Shown here piece after piece: positions 7,713-57,800 of a DNA stretch of 64,000 bases; the first letter of the stretch is position 1; each line of letters opens with the position of its first letter. A program made the position numbers and the translations under genes. A model generated the notes under the pieces. That model was given only the letters and a program-made list of their open reading frames with translations. It did not search any database and was not told the DNA's origin. Origin of the DNA: Hydnum rufescens UP504 (taxonomy: Eukaryota > Basidiomycota > Agaricomycetes > Cantharellales > Hydnaceae); the NCBI GenBank assembly GCA_014904985.1, contig MU128925.1, positions 36,100-100,099 on the forward strand. The letters are read 5' to 3'.

Positions 7713-8457
7713 CGGGACCCGTTATTTGGACGAAAAATCACCCGCGTCCCCAGCATTGGGGCGTGAACATTAATATACTTGAAACTGCCGTATTCTGTTT
7801 GTTCTGCTTTCTTGCCGTCGTGTCCATATTCGAGTTTTGCACGTCTTAATTCTTAGGTCCGTTGAGTGTACCCTGTGCTCCACTGAAGGGGATATGAGGA
7901 TAGAGTCTGCAGGCCTTGCTCAATTTGGCCGAGATATCCGCTGCGATTGGCTGAGGCTTCGAACGTCCGAGGTGTCCACCACATGTGACCCCTCTGAGGG
8001 ACGGGGATGATGAGGGAATCGTGACAATCTCACGCTCCCTCAGATCAGCATTATTCCAGGGGCGATTTTGGGATAGTAGTATGGCATCCATGGTCGGACG
8101 GTATCATCCATACTCGGGATCGGGGCTTGCCGGATCTGTTCACGTCTTCTCCTGTGTTTCTTCCCTCTCGTCATGGATTGTCAATTGCAAGAACCTCACT
8201 GAATTGGTAACTAGTATGTGAACGCTGTACGTGTCCCAAACCCAATTCCTTCTAGCTCTCGATTGTCAAGCCGGACACTAAGACAGGACTCGTTCCATTG
8301 CCTCGGCTGGCATCAGATGTCTGCCTTTATGCACTCCACTCAGATCGACCGACCCTCGTCTACTCCAGCAATCCTTGAAATATCTGTTTTCAGCATGCGT
8401 CGAGCTTTGGAACGGGGGACAGGGGCTAAACCAGGGCTCTCGTTTTAGATATATTCT
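7713..8457. other. Intergenic stretch, convergent gene ends
   Basis: About 745 bp between the tail-to-tail HMG-box and TAD2 genes. Open frames on both strands (for example 7846-8091 minus and 7985-8221 plus) show no recognisable domain, overlap one another and lack support. I see no gene here. Confidence 0.5.
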
Positions 8458-47075: not shown

Positions 47076-47482
47076 GATCGTACATGCTCGAAGCCTCCTC
47101 AGACCTGGAGCCCCCCCTCAAGGTGCCCAATTTCCAAAAGGTCGCTGGGGAGGCTGACGACGAAGAAAGCAAGGCTTAGTTGGAAAACACTGGTCAAGAC
47201 GGTGGAAATCACCAGAAAATGCCGACAGCCTCTCCGATGGTCTTGGACAGTTTCTGATGGGGACCAAGTTCTTCAAGATGGATGGTGAAGAACCAAGTGA
47301 AATTTGGGAGAAATGTATTCGGCCGGTAGTAGGCAGAAAATGCTCAGGCCCCCTCCCAGCTAGTTTAAAACTTTGCGAGATAGTTCATCCGGTGCAACCC
47401 GGTGAATCCGGAGTGTGCATCACAGCCGATTGGGGGTTCTCCACGAACAACGGCTCGATTGGGTGGCAGATAGTCTCCCTAG

Positions 47483-47511
47483 GCAGACGTCACGCTCCGC
47501 GTGACGTCTGC
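47483..47511. repeat. Terminal hairpin of the small element, left
   Basis: GCAGACGTCACGC, loop TCC, then the exact complement GCGTGACGTCTGC. An identical hairpin in inverted orientation is at 48474-48502. It lies 12 bp inside the terminus. Confidence 0.9.
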
Positions 47512-47638
47512 TTCCAGATCAAAAAACTTACTGTTAGGTCCCAATTTCGGAGTTATCCGGCTTGCTGCGCGGTCAAGTGACTTTATTTACTATACTTTGA
47601 TCAAAATTTACATGTAAATCACTGTAAACAACCCCAAT

Positions 47639-48225
47639 ATGAGCCAGACGCTCCCTTTTGACTGGTCTAGAAGAACTAGAGTTGACTGGAAAACATCTGA
47701 AAGTCTGTCCGACATCCAAGATAAGCTTCGAGACCCTCTGGGATATAATCTGGACGACGGGCCGCTACGAGGCATCGGTACTATTCTAAATGGGACAGGC
47801 CTGCTCTTTCTCAGAGCTACGGGGGACGGAAAATCCGCCCTAATATACGGCCCACTCATTATGGAACCGGGTATAGTTGGCATCATAGCCTCGCCAATAG
47901 ATTTCTTGGAGAGTGACCAAGTTAGTCCGGATCCTATATACAAGCTTGTATCTTACCTTATTCTAATGCTAGGTCCGGAACATGGAGGGGAAGGGAGTGA
48001 CCGCTGTGGAAATTAACCAGAGTACGCTGCGTGCGGCGGCTCCGGCTGCCCCATCTTGACCTCTGGGACGCAGCGCCGGAAAGGAAAATATCAAGCCATT
48101 TTCTGGAACTCCTCATCTCACCCGCCTTTGATAAGCTGTTGAAGGATGAGGGCTTCTCCAATCGTCTAGCCATATGCCTAGTGGATGAATGCCAAGGCTT
48201 TATCAAGAAATACGGGAAATGTTGA
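47639..48225 (+). pseudogene. 5' fragment of a RecQ-like helicase
   Basis: From ATG 47639 (MSQTLPFDWSRRTRVDW) the frame encodes a helicase N-terminus with the Walker A motif LFLRATGDGKSALIYGP and the motif Ia-like IGIIASPIDFLESDQ. After a break it continues as ISSHFLELLISPAFDKLL and LAICLVDECQ, which stands where a DEAH box is expected. The coding sequence then stops, and everything from motif III onward is missing. It differs from the intact helicase of the larger element (51805-54227), so it comes from a related element and not from that copy. Confidence 0.65.
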
Positions 48226-48357
48226 CTTGTTGGCCTTGATTGCATCAAATATGGCATCAATTTTCTCGGAATCAGTCTTCCTTGGAGCGTAATTTTGAGG
48301 CGTAGAGACCGACTCCTGATCTCGCTGAATGATAGGCGTCTTAGGCAATTGAGACAT
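48178..48357 (-). pseudogene. 5' fragment, probable DUF6589-type protein
   Basis: A 59-residue frame from ATG 48357 to TAG 48178-48180, read inward from the right end of the small element. It contains PRKTDSEKIDAIFDAIKANK and STFPVFLDKA, a helical pattern like the N-termini of DUF6589 proteins. That assignment rests on memory of the family and on its position, which mirrors the DUF6589 gene of the larger element. Its 3' end runs into the antisense helicase fragment, marking the deletion junction. Confidence 0.45.
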
Positions 48358-48512
48358 GAGGGAGTTTGTCCTGAGCTAGTTAGAAGGCTGGGTCACGTGA
48401 ATTCGGATATACAGTATAACTCCGGCGGAGGCCTTTAACGCCGAATTGGGGAGTAAGACCCCCGCGTCTGGAAGCAGACGTCACGCGGAGCGTGACGTCT
48501 GCCTGGGGAGAC

Positions 48513-48646
48513 TAGTCTCGTGACCAGACCTCAGCTACCGCTGAAGGTCTGGCAGAATGGGGAGTTCCGAAGGCGGGCATGAAGCTTCCGCTCCAGCCAA
48601 TCACAAAAAGTTTTGACCGGCGTTTGCCGTGTTTTTTCAGTTGGCT
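48513..48646 (+). repeat. Left terminal inverted repeat with hairpin
   Basis: Begins TAGTCTCGTGACCAGACC and ends CAGTTGGCT. A stem-loop, CCAGACC-TCAGC paired with GCTGA-a-GGTCTGG, sits about 12 bp inside the end. The right repeat has CCAGACCC-TCAG paired with CTG-t-GGGTCTGG at the same place, so the pairing is kept although the sequence changed. Confidence 0.85.
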
Positions 48647-48734
48647 TTGACTCGCAAATATTTCTTAGAATAATACTGACTCTGTACCTTGAGGCTTGAG
48701 CTGTCAATCTGCCTCCGTCGGCTGCCTTTGAGAT

Positions 48735-51729
48735 ATGCCTCCCGTTCGTACTAGCCCATCGAAATATGGCCCTTCTTCTACTGTTGGATTTATCAAAATC
48801 GGGGATCGAGTCTTTCAACGAAATACGTCATCTACTTTGCATACACCTGGTATGCTCTTTCGCGAAATATTCAAATACTCACGCACTTCCTTACATTGTT
48901 GATTAGCATTTGCGGGAGTAAGTCTACCATACCTTAGGCGACCGCCCGCAACCTCCTCTACCTCATCAGCAACAGCGGTGCCATCGATCGCAAACAACCA
49001 TGCGTCGTATTATGCATCATATTATTCGGATTATTATCACTCATGGTACACTCGTTTCCAAATACAACTCCCTCTCCCCCCCTCTCCTTCACCACCTCCA
49101 CCTCCGCCTAGCGTGTGGAGTCCGGCATCATCTTTTCGCATGGACTCCAACAAGGAGAATGAATGGCCCAATTTAATAGGCCTGTCTCGACCAGAGGTGG
49201 TTGAGGCAGCAATTGCCTATAGCTTAGTGTATCTGACGCAACAAAAGATCAGTTTCCGTACCCTTATAATGGAAGTCCTTCACAGCAACCCCAGATTTCA
49301 GAATAATTGCACCAACTTTTTCCGCCACCCATCGAGTGTTGAGGATATCATTAATATCTTTCATCAGCAAAATTCCACACGTGTAGGAGCATGGATGGAA
49401 GAGCAGGCTATTTCTATTGTTCAGAAGATACTCATGCGTGAGATGGACGTTCTGAAGAGAGTCTGGATGTTCAGAGCGAAGGATGTAAGTGTGGATTACC
49501 TCATTAATATGGATATGGGGAGCTACCGCAGTACACTTCGAAGATCCGCACCAGTATTATGGGGACTTCTTGTTGCATGCGTGCAGTCTGAAAGAGCCAT
49601 GGACGAAAATCTTATCAAGAGTCCTGAGACGGTACATTTGTTGGTTTTTCATCGCCACAAATGACACTAATTCTAATTTTTTGCTCAGCTCTGTACTGTC
49701 GTCGCATTTCAGTTGGCAAAACAACACTCAGCCAATGCAAATCTATTTGCTGCTCGATTCTCGATTTATTTGTGGTCATGTGGGACCCCCCGAGCAGTCG
49801 TGGACATCCTTGCGAAATTTGGATTGTCTCTTTCCTTCTTCAGTATTCGGGAGTGTCTCGACAATCTATCGAAAGCGTGTTTGGCATCAACTATCAACGC
49901 AGTTCGACGCCCCGGCGTGGCCTTTGGTATGGGATATGACAACCTCAATATTTCAACATCTACCCACGCAGAGCAGTATCTGCATGCCCGTCCGAAAATC
50001 GAGAATCTCACCATGCACACGATCTATATAATGAAGAATGCAACATTTGTCGAAATGCAGGCCAGCCCCATGGACGTTCATGCGCAACGTGCCCCACTCC
50101 TTACCCTATCCGACCTCTCTCCTAAACCCCTTGTCATCGCTCGCATTAATCATCAATTTAATGTCCAGATAATCCAAATTCTGCTCGAACATCCTGCATT
50201 TAATCACCTCGGTCCGGATGATAAGGCTGCGATTGCACAATACAAGGACGTCAGGCGTCCAATGGTGCATTCACGGACAGAGGAGTTTCCTCTTCCTGTG
50301 GCTGAGATTGACGAGTCCACGACCGAGGGGAATCACCAAAACCTTGAGGACATGGTTGCCACTATCAAGTATTCGCCGGATGAGGTGTCAGCACTCAAAA
50401 TTCCTGTTAGTGGAGACCAGCTTACGCTTTCACGAGGTCGTTCGATAATCGAGGAGCGGCTGGGTGATCTAACCCCCTATTTACAGGGAACCCCCTTTGT
50501 TGGCATGCCCGATTACTTCCATGTCATGAACTGGCTGTTGATGATCCTCAGTGTATATCGTGGCTCGACCATTGATGATGGTTCTCTCGCGACCTATATC
50601 AATCTTCTTGGGCTGAATCGGTTAGGATCGGCGAAACCAGACCACCACTTACTGGAGCGCTTAGTCCTCCAAGTGTATAAAGGCCATATCCTTGCTGCTT
50701 GGGTACAAATCAGTGGTTTCCATGCTATCGAGGAATTTGCGGCAAGCAAGCCAGATCGTAATCTCCTTTCTCAGCTTGGAGAGAGGATTGCACATCGATA
50801 TATCGGTGCTCCAAGCAAGACTGCCTTTCGAACCTCCGCAGACGACCCCACTACAACAGATGAGATATTTCGCCAATGTGTTCTCTTTAATCGCGATGCG
50901 GCAATATACCTTGAGCTGAAAAATGCAATTCAACTAGGAGACTTTGGCCGTGTTGAGGACCTTATTCCAACCATGATCTGCATCTTCTGTGGGGGTGGAT
51001 CTCCCAATTATGCAAACGAGCTTCTTCATCTGCTTCAAAATTTGAAATACTCGTGGCTGCCAACATTTGCGGATATGGTTCGAGACAACATCCTTGTCAA
51101 TATCTCTGGCCGACACAACTCATATATGCCTGTGGATATGAATCAAGAGCACCATATACGTCTTCTTAAGGTTTGTCTTAATGGGCATTGGCAGGACGGA
51201 ATCACATGATCTTCTTCATTAGTACTTCATTGCTGCGAGGGGCCTCCATGCAGATACAAGCTTCTTGAGGACTATTGGCCCTATTATTCGCACTGTCGGT
51301 GCATGCAAGAGCAATATGCAACGTCAGCTTGGTGCCTCATACTCGGGGAGTCGACACACAACTCCAGATGTCTCGTCGGACAGCCGGAAAGTCGCCCAAA
51401 TGTGCATTGAACATCATACATTCACTTTGCAAGCAGGCAGATGTACCCAGGTGCCAGTTCTAGATACATTGGTTCAGGGACATCACATGATGGCAAGTTC
51501 AAGTCTTCGCGAATTTTGGGCGCAGAAATCATTATTGGATGACTCGACGGATATTCCTGAGAGTGAAGACATGGTTGCAAAAGAAAGAGACAAGGTGGTA
51601 GAGGCGGAGGAATATGCAGACACTCAGTACATCAAGGATGAAGAGGGTGAATTTCAAGACCATGGGTATTGGGAGAGTGAACAAGCGGAGGAGGAATTCA
51701 TGCGCCTTTACAATCTGATAGATAATTAG
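48735..51729 (+). CDS. DUF6589 domain protein, candidate transposase
   Basis: Exons: ATG 48735 (MPPVRTSPSKYGPSSTVGF), a second exon from about 48907 with a Tyr/Ser stretch and a proline-rich run, then after an intron near 49632-49690 a long open exon to about 51170 and a last exon to TAG 51727-51729. The protein of roughly 900 residues matches DUF6589 along its C-terminal two thirds. Characteristic blocks are PLVIARINHQFNVQIIQILL, RTEEFPLPVAEIDESTTEGN, SGDQLTLSRGRSIIEERLGD, GMPDYFHVMNWLLMILSVYR, NRDAAIYLELKNAIQLGDF and RVEDLIPTMICIFCGGG. The C-terminus is very acidic. DUF6589 has no assigned function that I know of. Position inside a bounded element, with the invariant-looking acidic residues of SGDQLT, MPDYFH and YLELKN, suggests an RNase-H-like transposase; this is inference. 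Confidence 0.85.
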
Positions 51730-51804
51730 CACCCATACATAAATATTTAATTTGAAGACTTTGATTGCGGTGTATTACCTATGAGACTTCTTCCCTTTTG
51801 ATGG

Positions 51805-54227
51805 TCATTGTCGAAGAGTATAGCTACTTGGTCCTTGTGGCACTGGCGGGAGTGAAGAAGCAACTCCTTGGCGAGGGTGCTTTGGGATATTGGTGGCAGT
51901 CTCCGACTCCGAAGCTTTTCGAGTCCGCAAAATGGTTGTGTGTTGAGGCTTCATGTCTGGAGGAATAGGGGCTGAAGAGTGGGCCCTAACATTAGTGTTC
52001 TCTTCAGGTTGTTCACCTTGTGCATTCGAACATCCTGTTGAAACATCCCCAGCTGGTGCATCTCCATTCTTGCCTTCACCATCAGATCTGGAGGGCACCA
52101 ATGCCACCATGCCTTCCTGCACTGCTTGCCTACTATGTACGCCATTTTTCACCGCACGAGATACTGCCACAGCTTGTACCCCATGGCTGATTGATTGCCA
52201 CCCACCATTATCAAAATCATGAACAAGATCGAAGATCGACCGGATATAATTTGGAGGAAGTGAAAGTTGTTCAAGGGTAGGAATGATGGCATCAACCGAA
52301 ATAGGAAATTTGAGCTTGGCCACAGATTGAATCAAGGCATCGGGAATAAACACCTCTACAGGGAGGATATTGCCAAATTTCTCCTCTGTATGTGTAGCCA
52401 AGTGCCACTCCTCAATTATATGCTGGAGAGGCAATCTCTGCGCCACAGGACAGTGGGAGGTTCGTGGTTGAGGTTTCTTTTTGGAGACAATGATTGGCCA
52501 GGTTTCTTCCGCTGTCTTTCCACCAGGTAATCCGCATCCTTTACCATCACAGCAGTACCATCCCAGTGCAACAACTATATCACATAGTTCAAATGATGGT
52601 ATGATATGGTCACAAGTACAAATCATTCTAACCTCATGGTTCTCACTTTCCATTTTGTGACACCAGTTCCAAGCCACAGCACCAATCCCCTCCTTTAGCG
52701 TCATTTTCGAGATTAATGTAATCAAGAATACATTGCTGAGTTTGATTCTTTTTGGTGACAGGAATCTTTTTCTGACCTTTGTGAGCCTTGGGTATTAACA
52801 TCCATGCTTCATGCTCAGCTTTAGGAGCTATTGCCCATGGCTCATACAGCAGCAAGGCAATGCCATTAAGCACGCATATCTGGCCCACTCTTTGCTGGTA
52901 ATCAATTAGATCTGTACATAGACCAATCTGATAGGTGTTATGGGTAACTGGCACATTGCATCCCTAAAAGAAAGGTAACCAATGATCATTGTTAGAAATA
53001 TTCTCCAAGCTACAACTTGTGCATACCATTCTGGCTGCAGATGTGGCAATCAACATCAAAACTTCCCCTGCCACAAAATCACTCCACATCTTCTTACAGT
53101 ATTCATCTGAAAATCCCGAGTGAAAAGAGCGAATAAGACCATCCTTTTGCAGAGTGGGAGAAAGGCGGTGGGTGAGGTATCGGGTGATTTTACATGCCAA
53201 GCACCAGTCATCACAAAATACGATTGATGACTCTGGACAAGTATCAGGTGTGGGGATGAGAAAATTGTAATTTCACATGTTTTTGATTCCATTGACAAGA
53301 GGACAAGCTGCATAGCAGATATTGGGACAATTTATGCTGCCAACTGACACTATATGTTTGTTGGGGTGGAGATTGAGGCCAGTGACTATGTGACGCAGGA
53401 CAATTGGGGGGCTGTGGCTGTGAGTGCAAGAACTTGTGGCAAAGCAAAAAGCTGTATGAGTGCCATTCCCAGCTGTCCCCACTGTGGTTGAAATGCAGGC
53501 GAGTTTCCATGAGGTAGACCCCACCGATCGATATTATGTGCCTCATCAACTACAAACAGCCCTACATGATCTCGGAAGGCAGGGTTGTGGAGAAGTGCAT
53601 TAAATGGCCCATGACCTTTTAGAAGTTCAGCTGGCTGGATAATAAAATTCTGTATTATATGTTTTTCTCACACATCCTATAGACTCATAGTTGGTTATTG
53701 TGTATCATAGACAAATATGCCACTCACACCCCAGAAAGCCAAGTTACATGTCATCTCCTTATTAATGGCAAGGGACTTCAGACCAAATTTCTCAAGGTCC
53801 AACACCTATGCATAGGCTTAGCACAATGGATTCTTTTGTGGTAAATACATTTTAATAACACTTTACGAACCTGGCCACGTTGTAGTTCTTTCAATGGCGA
53901 AATAGTGACAACATACTTATCTGGATTGAGCAGCATCCACATTGCAATGATAAGTGTTTTTCCGGAACCTGTGGCAGCAACATATACTAAGTCTAGCTTA
54001 TGCCCTATCAATGTGACCAGGGCTTCAAGCTGATCTTGGCGGGGTTTGATTGTGGAGCGAGAATGTACCCATTCAACTGCATCACAGATGATGTGCTGAT
54101 ATTCCTTTGGAAATGATAGATAAACATCAGCATCAAGGAGGCACTGGCCCAAGCGCTGGCCCAAAGGGGTCCCAAGTGCATCTGAGGTGCAATCTTGGTC
54201 TGGAGGAGACTGGAAATTTTCCATCAT
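51805..54227 (-). CDS. RecQ-like DEAH helicase of the transposon (one apparent frameshift)
   Basis: Minus-strand gene of several exons, starting at ATG 54227 or slightly upstream. Motifs in order: KPRQDQLEALVTLIGHKLDL (Q-motif region), Walker A VAATGSGKTLIIAMW, YVVTISPLKELQRGQV (Ia), NFIIQPAELLKGHG, DEAH box LFVVDEAHNIDRWG, motif III LALTATAP, VGSINCPNICYAA, then the second domain with IRSFHSGFS, VLMLIATSAARM-GCNVP (motif V region) and the motif VI site QQRVGQICVLNG, where the usual QxxGRxGR arginines are missing. A Cys/His-rich segment and a Ser/Pro-rich tail of about 150 residues follow, ending at TGA 51805-51807. Just after motif III a run of six C (53406-53411 as G on plus) is one base short. 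It probably unwinds element DNA during transposition; its motif VI raises doubt about ATPase coupling. Confidence 0.8.
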
Positions 54228-54304
54228 CAAATCCCTGTTTTGGTCCCGGATCACTAAAGTGGAAGCCCGCACTCAGACCATAATTGGCTAGTAGATCAGT
54301 GTAT

Positions 54305-54438
54305 AGCCAACTGAAAACTATGGCAAATGCCGGTCAAAACTTTTTGTGATTGGCTGGAGCGGAAGCTTCGTGCCCGCGCCTTCGGAACTCCCCATCTCAC
54401 CAGACCCTCAGTTTACTGTGGGTCTGGTCACGAGACTA
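54305..54438 (-). repeat. Right terminal inverted repeat with hairpin
   Basis: Reverse complement of the left repeat (48513-48646), with 134 bp on both sides after three small compensating indels. It contains the 20-bp perfect match TCAAAACTTTTTGTGATTGG and the block GGGGAGTTCCGAAGGC on the complementary strand. Confidence 0.85.
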
Positions 54439-54456
54439 TGGGGAGACTAGTGGCAG

Positions 54457-54880: not shown

Positions 54881-57800
54881 ATGTCTCTCCCTCGAGCAGA
54901 CTATGCCAGCCATGACTCTGGCCGTAAGGACGCCCATGTGCCATGTCTCGAGGGTACACGCGTCGCTGTATTGGACGAGACCATGTCATGGTTGGAGAGC
55001 GAGAATGGAGACATGCCGCCCATATACTGGCTAAATGGTCTCGCTGGAATCGGGAAATCAACGATTGCGAAAACGGTGGCTGAACTAGCAGAGGAGAGGG
55101 GGATGCTCGGCGCCAGCTTCTTCTTTTCCCGAGGCGACGAGCCTTTAAGCGATCCATGCCTTGTCTTCCCCACAATCGCCTTCCAACTTGCTCACTCGGA
55201 CGACGAATTCAAGAGGGTGATCCTGGACGCTGTACAAGAAGATCTGACACTCGGAACGAAGACACTTCTACCTCAGCTTCGGGAATTGATAATAACACCA
55301 CTCCTCAAGGTGAATCCGAATCGGCGTACGACACTCATCATCCTTGATGCGCTCGACGAGTGTAGGGAAAACGGTGCAGTAGAAATTCTACGACTTCTGT
55401 TCTCGCACGGGACTCGAGTACCGTTTCTGCGGATCTTAATCACGAGTCGGCCGGAGCCCCACATATCCTCGGTGTTCGACGAGGCTCCGAATGTCGCCAA
55501 GAGGATTCTCCATGATATTGAAAGCTCAGTGATTGAACACGACATCCGGCTTTACCTCCACACTGAATTATCCAAGATTCCACATAACCTTCGTCTTCCT
55601 ATGAGCCCCCATTGGGTATCGGAAGACGAGCTAAATTTGCTAACAGAGAAGTCGGGAAAGCTCTTCGTTTATGCGGCCACGTCGATACGATTCATTAGCG
55701 ACAATCGTGTCCGAAATCCTCGTCGGCATCTCGACCTTATACTCAGCACCCAAATTGCGCAGGAGGTCGGGGCGACACCATATACACAACTGGATAAGCT
55801 TTACATGGGCGTGATCCGCAACTCCCTTTCTGATTCTAACCGTCAAGATGTCGTTGAGCGTTTTCAAGTCGTCCTTGGGAGCATTGTTTTGCTGCGCGAA
55901 CCTCTCCCGCTGCGTTCATTATCAATATTTGTGCAGTGCGAAATTGAGGTGATTAATGGGCGTTGTACCATCTCGGTTCGGTTATTATCCCCCCAACGAA
56001 TGAGGATGACATCCCTCGCATTTATCATCCTTCGTTTCGGGACTTCATTATGGATGCATCGCGATGCTCTGATCCTGGCTTTGTCATTGTTCCGACCCCA
56101 AGCCAGGAGCGACGACATGCGATTCGATGCTTCGAGCTGTTGGCGAGATCCCTGAAACGGGATATAGCTGGGATCTCGGATCCCTCGCTTCTGAACGAGG
56201 AGGTGGATGGGTTCGAAGAGAAGGTGAGGGAATCTGTATCGCCTGAGGTGCGGTATGCGTGTCGGTATTGGGCGTCACATCTGGTGTGTGTGGGGTTCGG
56301 AGATGAGGTGGTAGAGAAAGAACTGAAGGGGTTTTCGATGCGGTCCCTTTTGTGGTGGTTCGAGGTGATGAGCCTAATTGGCAGTGTCTCCAGTGCTGTA
56401 ACTTCGATACGAGAAGCGCACCGCTGGGCAGTGAGTGTCTTCCATTATGTATCATTGAATAACGTACTGATTGACAATTATGGTGATGGTAGATAATGTC
56501 GAAATGCGAGTCAACTGTGGTTACGATGCTGGCGGACGCGCACCGGTTTGTACTTGCTTATGGTGATATCATTCGAGCGAGCGCGGTGCATGTCTACGAG
56601 TCTGCTCTGCCATTTACACCGCATAACACTGCGTTGTACAGAGTGTATTCCAATGAAGCAAAGCATTTAATCCGTGTGCTGCAGGGGGTGGAGCCTGAGT
56701 GGCCGCGGTCCTTGAGCTGTTTACTTGGTCATTCTGATAGTGTTTGGTGTGTGGCATTTTCGCCAGATGGCTTGCGATTGGCTTCGGGTTCCTATGATTG
56801 CACTGTGCGATTATGGGATGCCATAACCAGCACACCCATTGCAACACTGGAAGGTCATTATGGGAGTGTTAATTCTGTGGCATTTTCACCGGATGGCTTG
56901 CAATTGACTTCTGGCTCCCATGATTGTACTGTGCGATTGTGGGATATCATGTCTGGCACCCTGATTGCAACCCTGGAAAGTCATTCTTCCTCAGTTGGGT
57001 GTGTTGCTTTTTCCCTGGATGGCTTGCAATTGGCAGTGGGCTTCTATGATTGCACTGTGCAATTGCTGGATGCCACATCTGGTACACCCATCACAACACT
57101 AAAGGTTCATTCTGACCCAGCTACCCCAGTTGTATTTTCATCAACTGGCTGGCAACTGGCTCTGGGCTCTTTGTATTGCACTGCTGTGCAATTGTGGGAT
57201 ACCATGTCTGGTGTGCTCATCAGAACACTGGAAGGCCATGATGAAGGGGTGCACTCTATTGCATTTTCACCAGATGACTTGCAATTGGCTTCAAGTTCTG
57301 GCCATTCTGTGCGATTGTGGGATGCCATGTCTGGTGCACCCATTGCAACAATGGATGGCCATTCTTATACTGTTAATTCTGTTGCATTCTCACCCAATGG
57401 CTTGCAATTGGCTTCAGGTGTTTCTGGTGGCACAGTGCAATTGTGGGATGTCATGTCTGGTGCATCCATTGCAATAATGCAAGGCCATTCTCAAGGTGTT
57501 GGTTCTATTTCATTTTCACCAAATGGCTTGCAATTGGCTTCTGGTGGTTTTGATTCCACTGTGAGACTGTGGGATGTCATGTCTGGGACCCCCAGTGTGC
57601 CACTGGAAGGACATTGTTCTGCCATTACATGCATGTCATTTTCACCAAATGGCTGGCAACTGGCTTCAGGCTCTTGGGACTATGATGTGAAATTGTGGGA
57701 TGCCATATCTGGTGCCCTCATCACAACACTGCAAAGTCACTCCAAGGAAATTATGTTTCTTCAATTTTCACCAAATGGCTGGCAACTTGCTTCATGTGCT

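Follow-up and report, generated by a model that had tools for sequence, protein, structure and literature searches.

The genome of the basidiomycete Hydnum rufescens UP504 (Cantharellales) contains a 5.9-kb DNA transposon (5926 bp), located at positions 48513-54438 of a 64,000-nucleotide stretch of contig MU128925.1 (assembly GCA_014904985.1, positions 36,100 to 100,099; hereafter the window). We interpret it as a class II element with terminal inverted repeats (TIRs) that most likely, at a probability of roughly 0.78, represents a basidiomycete AcademH family, with a protein of the DUF6589 family as its transposase and a RecQ-like helicase as its own accessory protein.

Element ends, target duplications and empty sites

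The element begins with TAGTCTCGTGACCAGACC (48513-48530), which has a perfect inverted counterpart at 54421-54438. Two additional inverted arms, one 35 bp long (86%) and the other 64 bp long (92%), extend the TIRs to approximately 134 bp, across which the left TIR (48513-48646, + strand) and the right TIR (54305-54438, - strand, terminating in CGAGACTA) share 85% identity. Both ends are immediately flanked by an exact 9-bp target site duplication, TGGGGAGAC (48504-48512 and 54439-54447, neither assigned to a strand). Inverted repeats of this length and a 9-bp duplication had been proposed in the original prediction, which was made from the letters of the window, and both hold.

A search of the genome (63.2 Mb, 539 contigs) with the left end returned at least 56 places. 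Target duplications were counted in 19 two-ended family copies and in two related elements on contigs C98 and C28 (21 in total), with one-ended or unread places excluded. Exact 9-bp duplications flank 14 of the 21 copies, and 17 have at most one mismatch (three with one mismatch), while exact duplications of 7, 8, 10 or 11 bp are absent among them. In a control that paired the left flank of one copy with the right flank of another, 0 of 420 pairings agreed in at least eight of nine bases, compared with 17 of 21 true pairs, and the 9-bp duplication thus exceeds chance. The duplicated 9-mers show no strong common pattern, and TTAA is absent among them. The copies on C55 (L047) and C6 (L048) have the same junction in opposite orientation (96% over 666 bp, with a common left flank of only 16 bp), which, judged from its sequence, is a duplicated segment; because these two have one junction in common, the exact duplications correspond to 13 independent cases.

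Most of the two-ended family copies (14 of 19) are 429-482 bp long, shorter than the genes require, a length that would be expected of non-autonomous copies. The other five measure 707, 1173, 1868, 2601 and 5926 bp, and the 2601-bp copy (C77) contains additional end-like sequence internally. As separate observations on locus structure, the flanks of C138:47840-48700 (L051) and C138:49480-50350 (L063) are exact reverse complements over 60 bp on each side, which points to an inverted duplication including the element, and C1:713760-714900 (L057) is a palindromic locus without target duplication, with near-identical, inverted left and right flanks.

Empty sites were identified for the elements on C28, C171 and C61. 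The C28 element (C28:378695-386136) carries DUF6589 and a helicase between 154-bp ends and lies inside a high-copy repeat. When its flanks were joined with one TCAACACTG retained, the junction was crossed in 40 of 40 scored candidates (the best 40 of 206), which are hence empty sites, the best matching at 98% over exactly 300 bp. The short copy on C171 has three empty places (88-96%), in which the junction is crossed by 35-37 bp. The C61 copy is inserted within a copy of a shorter relative, TE-B, and the TE-B copy of the window (47471-48514) is the matching empty site (283 columns, 93%, gap-free at the junction). For the C92 copy, 14 places match most of the joined flanks and span the junction, at just 73-76% identity, and we count this as weak evidence. 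In the joined-flank search of the genome for the window copy, no match extended further than 12 bases across the junction and the TE-B side alone was found, because the left flank is the repeat TE-B, which ends 2 bp past the insertion point. Empty sites, target duplications and mobile inverted ends together support the earlier claim of a DNA transposon. The repeat hosting the C28 element is itself present in at least 40 genome copies at 90-98%.

The DUF6589 gene and its helicase partner

Two convergent genes lie between the ends, with a stop-to-stop distance of 75 bp. The DUF6589 gene (48735-51729, + strand; Pfam DUF6589, PF20231, E = 2e-82) is predicted by a sequence-derived splice model to consist of exons 48735-48849, 48907-49631, 49689-51170 and 51223-51729, separated by three GT-AG introns, and to encode a stop-free frame of 942 amino acids. 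On the - strand, a multi-exon DEAD/RecQ-like helicase gene extends from 54226 to 51805, with a DEAD domain above the Pfam cut-off (E = 1.4e-8) and, on the same exon, a weak match to NCBIfam recQ_fam below the cut-off (E = 5e-4). Inspection of the reading frames revealed a frame shift in a C-run near 53410 and an in-frame TGA at 53273-53275. The convergent arrangement and its spacing are therefore as first described, but the helicase is not intact. Helicase motif VI has the sequence QRxGRAGRDG, which was not read in the motif-VI region of the three alignable helicase copies (window, C28 and C485); by their sequences, all three copies may be damaged. A PDB sequence search with the first helicase open reading frame (ORF) gave no match.

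The closest protein match of the window DUF6589 is BS47DRAFT_1420389 of H. rufescens UP504 (94% identity, 70% of the query part covered); the aligned residues look identical, and the annotated model misses one stretch and ends earlier. Relatives in the protein searches came from Hydnum itself and from other named fungi, which we take to belong to Mortierellomycotina, in addition to a few other entries; each search scored only the 7991-7994 candidates with the most shared words, and absence elsewhere carries no meaning. No relatives were found on viral contigs, and a PDB sequence search with DUF6589 gave nothing of note (a single match at E = 3.4).

A profile search of the genome with PF20231 yielded 17 matching places on 11 contigs, read as 11 loci. 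At seven of these (C17, C98, C31, C45, C485, C28 and C80) a convergent DEAD/RecQ-like helicase is located downstream of DUF6589. Besides the window, matching ends outside the gene pair are present on C98 (77 bp, 97%), C28 (154 bp, 93%) and C485 (106 bp, 95%; left tip lost), with the tips TAGTCTCGTCACCAGACC on C98 and TAGACTCATGACCAGTC on C28 corresponding to TAGTCTCGTGACCAGACC in the window; by the same test, no such ends were found on C31, C45 or C80. TE-B-type ends occur at the C80 locus, on the side of the helicase, and at the C22 locus, on that of DUF6589, and on C199 an element end is followed directly inside by a helicase start, the remainder being cut off by the contig end. Matches of pieces from other loci to C22 and C247 in tblastn, in several frames and on both strands, were set aside as putative shared repeats.

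The C98 and C28 elements are diverged relatives with both genes between such ends, which supports the conclusion that helicase and DUF6589 travel together in the transposon, and the proposed partnership of the two genes stands on this and on the seven convergent loci. The expectation that terminal repeats enclose both genes gave a mixed, not an adverse, result, with short copies on one side and the C98 and C28 elements on the other. The prevalence of copies too short for genes would also fit host or passenger genes in an element moved by a different transposase; this is highly improbable, given that the window, C98 and C28 elements, diverged and two-ended, hold the same convergent pair and that DUF6589 has a predicted DDE transposase fold.

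Predicted fold and catalytic residues

Comparison of two AlphaFold models of DUF6589 with the PDB using a second-look aligner placed the Hermes and P-element transposases as best matches, at 8-14% identity in the structural alignments with P element/hAT transposases. The models and the conserved residues are consistent with an RNase H-fold DDE transposase, in which the candidate catalytic residues are D364 (GYDNLN, first core strand; codon 49938-49940, + strand), D523 (SGDQLT, directly after a core strand; codon 50415-50417, + strand) and probably E767 (NQEHH, last helix of the core; codon 51147-51149, + strand). In the models, a long helical stretch separates the second candidate Asp from the Glu, a feature shared with the P element and Hermes. 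E724 (NYANELL; codon 51018-51020, + strand) was considered as the catalytic Glu and displaced by E767, because E767 is Glu at eight of eight Hydnum loci and lies near the Glu of Hermes, RAG1 and the P element, whereas E724 is Glu at five of eight (Asp on C28 and C485, His on C427). Counted back without gaps from the last aligned residue, and not by residue-level alignment, E767 is at most two residues from these catalytic Glu positions, which we take to be Hermes E572, RAG1 E962 and P element E531, and E724 is 43 residues off. Among 21 aligned sequences, E767 and E724 each have one exception (P0019) besides gaps. A fold search of BFVD with DUF6589 gave nothing significant.

Mutator-like elements (MULEs) typically combine long inverted ends with 9-bp duplications, as does the element described here; when the DUF6589 ORF was scanned against Pfam, however, DUF6589 was the only domain found and a MULE domain was absent. 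A C/DxxH signature between the second D and the last E is described for MuDR, hAT, P, Kolobok and Dada transposases (PMC9587614). In DUF6589 the His is conserved in 21 of 21 sequences, but the residue three positions upstream is Q in 20 of 21, and D in the window copy alone (DYFH); at the Hydnum loci this residue is D, R, G or Q. The signature, for which DYFH had been suggestive, was dropped as other sequences do not keep it, and membership in the MULEs is very unlikely. Taken together, empty sites, target duplications, gene pairing and predicted fold make it very probable that DUF6589 acts as a DDE transposase, in line with the role assigned to it in the original prediction.

Classification and proposed mechanism

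AcademH elements are described as producing 9- or 10-bp duplications and encoding a helicase, and AcademX elements as producing 3- or 4-bp duplications and encoding a nuclease (PMC10045372, citing Kojima 2020, Mob DNA 11:15). AcademH has been reported in Basidiomycota, Ascomycota and Mucoromycota at low copy number (PMC10799480), and fungal Academ copies bear DEAD/RecQ domains (PMC6416283). Set against these descriptions, the H. rufescens element agrees with AcademH in its helicase (DEAD domain, weak recQ_fam match, convergent position at most DUF6589 loci), in its 9-bp duplication and in its basidiomycete host, and it differs from AcademX in both encoded enzyme and duplication length; AcademX would belong to the same superfamily if this filing holds. 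The element is thus probably a new AcademH family, filed by element make-up and not by transposase descent. The earlier suggestion of an unnamed superfamily is not supported in that form, since helicase-bearing AcademH elements with 9-10-bp duplications are already in print (PMC10045372). No prior transposon assignment of DUF6589/PF20231 was found in the limited literature collection searched; the link between DUF6589 and a transposon may be new, while the kind of element is already known.

Several results weigh against this interpretation. The AcademH filing draws on the make-up of the element and not on the descent of its transposase. The genome-wide search with recQ_fam returned zero matches above the model cut-off, and for the C31 helicase the C-terminal part alone matches, at 27% identity. 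At four of the 11 DUF6589 loci (C427, C22, C247 and C213), no helicase was found in the stretch read, either by tblastn with pieces of the window helicase or among stop-free stretches inspected by eye. Four of the 21 copies, two on C138 (two mismatches each) and one each on C51 and C1, have no 9-bp duplication that is exact or off by a single base. Finally, the fold match depends on the second-look aligner, with a root mean square deviation (rmsd) of 6-7, and Foldseek alone found nothing significant in the PDB (best transposase E = 0.065).

The alternative that survives best is a separate, unnamed superfamily, in which DUF6589 would be a DDE transposase not of Academ descent that acquired its helicase and 9-bp duplication in parallel. 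It is favored by the P- and hAT-like fold and by the lack of any DUF6589 assignment in the literature collection searched, but helicase, duplication length and fungal range all agree with the published description of AcademH, and we consider this alternative possible but clearly the less probable reading. To the same tentative degree, DUF6589 might constitute its own DDE superfamily outside Academ, with a P/hAT-like fold, a dedicated RecQ-like helicase and 9-bp duplications, and the many annotated fungal DUF6589 genes would be transposases of such elements. P element and hAT transposons themselves produce 8-bp duplications and are not known to have a partner helicase, in contrast to the element described here. 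For hAT, duplications are usually 8 bp and also 5-7 bp (PMC12730594), and 0 of 21 copies were exact at 8 or 7 bp.

RecQ helicases are also known from KolobokH, a fungal Kolobok lineage of DNA transposons (PMC9587614), and RecQ-like genes are multiplied among the fungal telomere-linked RecQ helicases (PMC4522978). The latter are tied to chromosome ends, whereas the H. rufescens helicase is located between transposon ends beside DUF6589. Assignment to KolobokH is the least probable of all, being contradicted by the 9-bp duplications without fixed sequence, as Kolobok elements duplicate TTAA, and by the helicase being a separate convergent gene here.

Under the AcademH interpretation, and by analogy to other DDE elements, the fold, conserved residues and duplications suggest that DUF6589 would bind the TAG(T/A)CTC... 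ends, cut them to excise the element, and join it to the target with the two strands attacked 9 bp apart, and gap repair would then produce the 9-bp duplication. The helicase would probably melt DNA at the ends or the target, or assist in excision and the subsequent repair; its role, like catalysis and the order of steps, is inferred. Short copies would have to be mobilized by transposase supplied from elsewhere, and the window copy, with an open transposase and a broken helicase gene, would need an outside helicase, if one is required. The ends, duplications, empty sites and joint travel of the two genes are evident at the sequence level. A Pfam domain of unknown function thereby gains a testable function with candidate catalytic residues, tied to a helicase-bearing transposon. 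If this is true, DUF6589 genes and adjacent helicases in fungal annotations would be counted as mobile DNA instead of host genes, and the empty sites and short derivatives offer clean material for asking why certain cut-and-paste transposons carry a helicase.

The neighboring TE-B (47471-48514, no strand assigned) is 1044 bp long and has 48-bp ends that begin with TAGTCTCCC. Its last bases form the insertion site of the main element, 2 bp from the TE-B end, and its terminal TA can be read twice, once at 48513-48514, where it coincides with the start of the element, and again at 54448-54449. The TE-B flanks, GTGGCAG(C)A, match each other except for a gap of one base. No Pfam domain was found in the TE-B remnant by Pfam scan, and the remnant has 84% identity over 111 amino acids to a conceptual translation of DNA from the C80 locus, on its helicase side. 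Approximately 430 bp past the element, an NLR-like ORF with NPHP3_N/NACHT domains begins (54881-56155).
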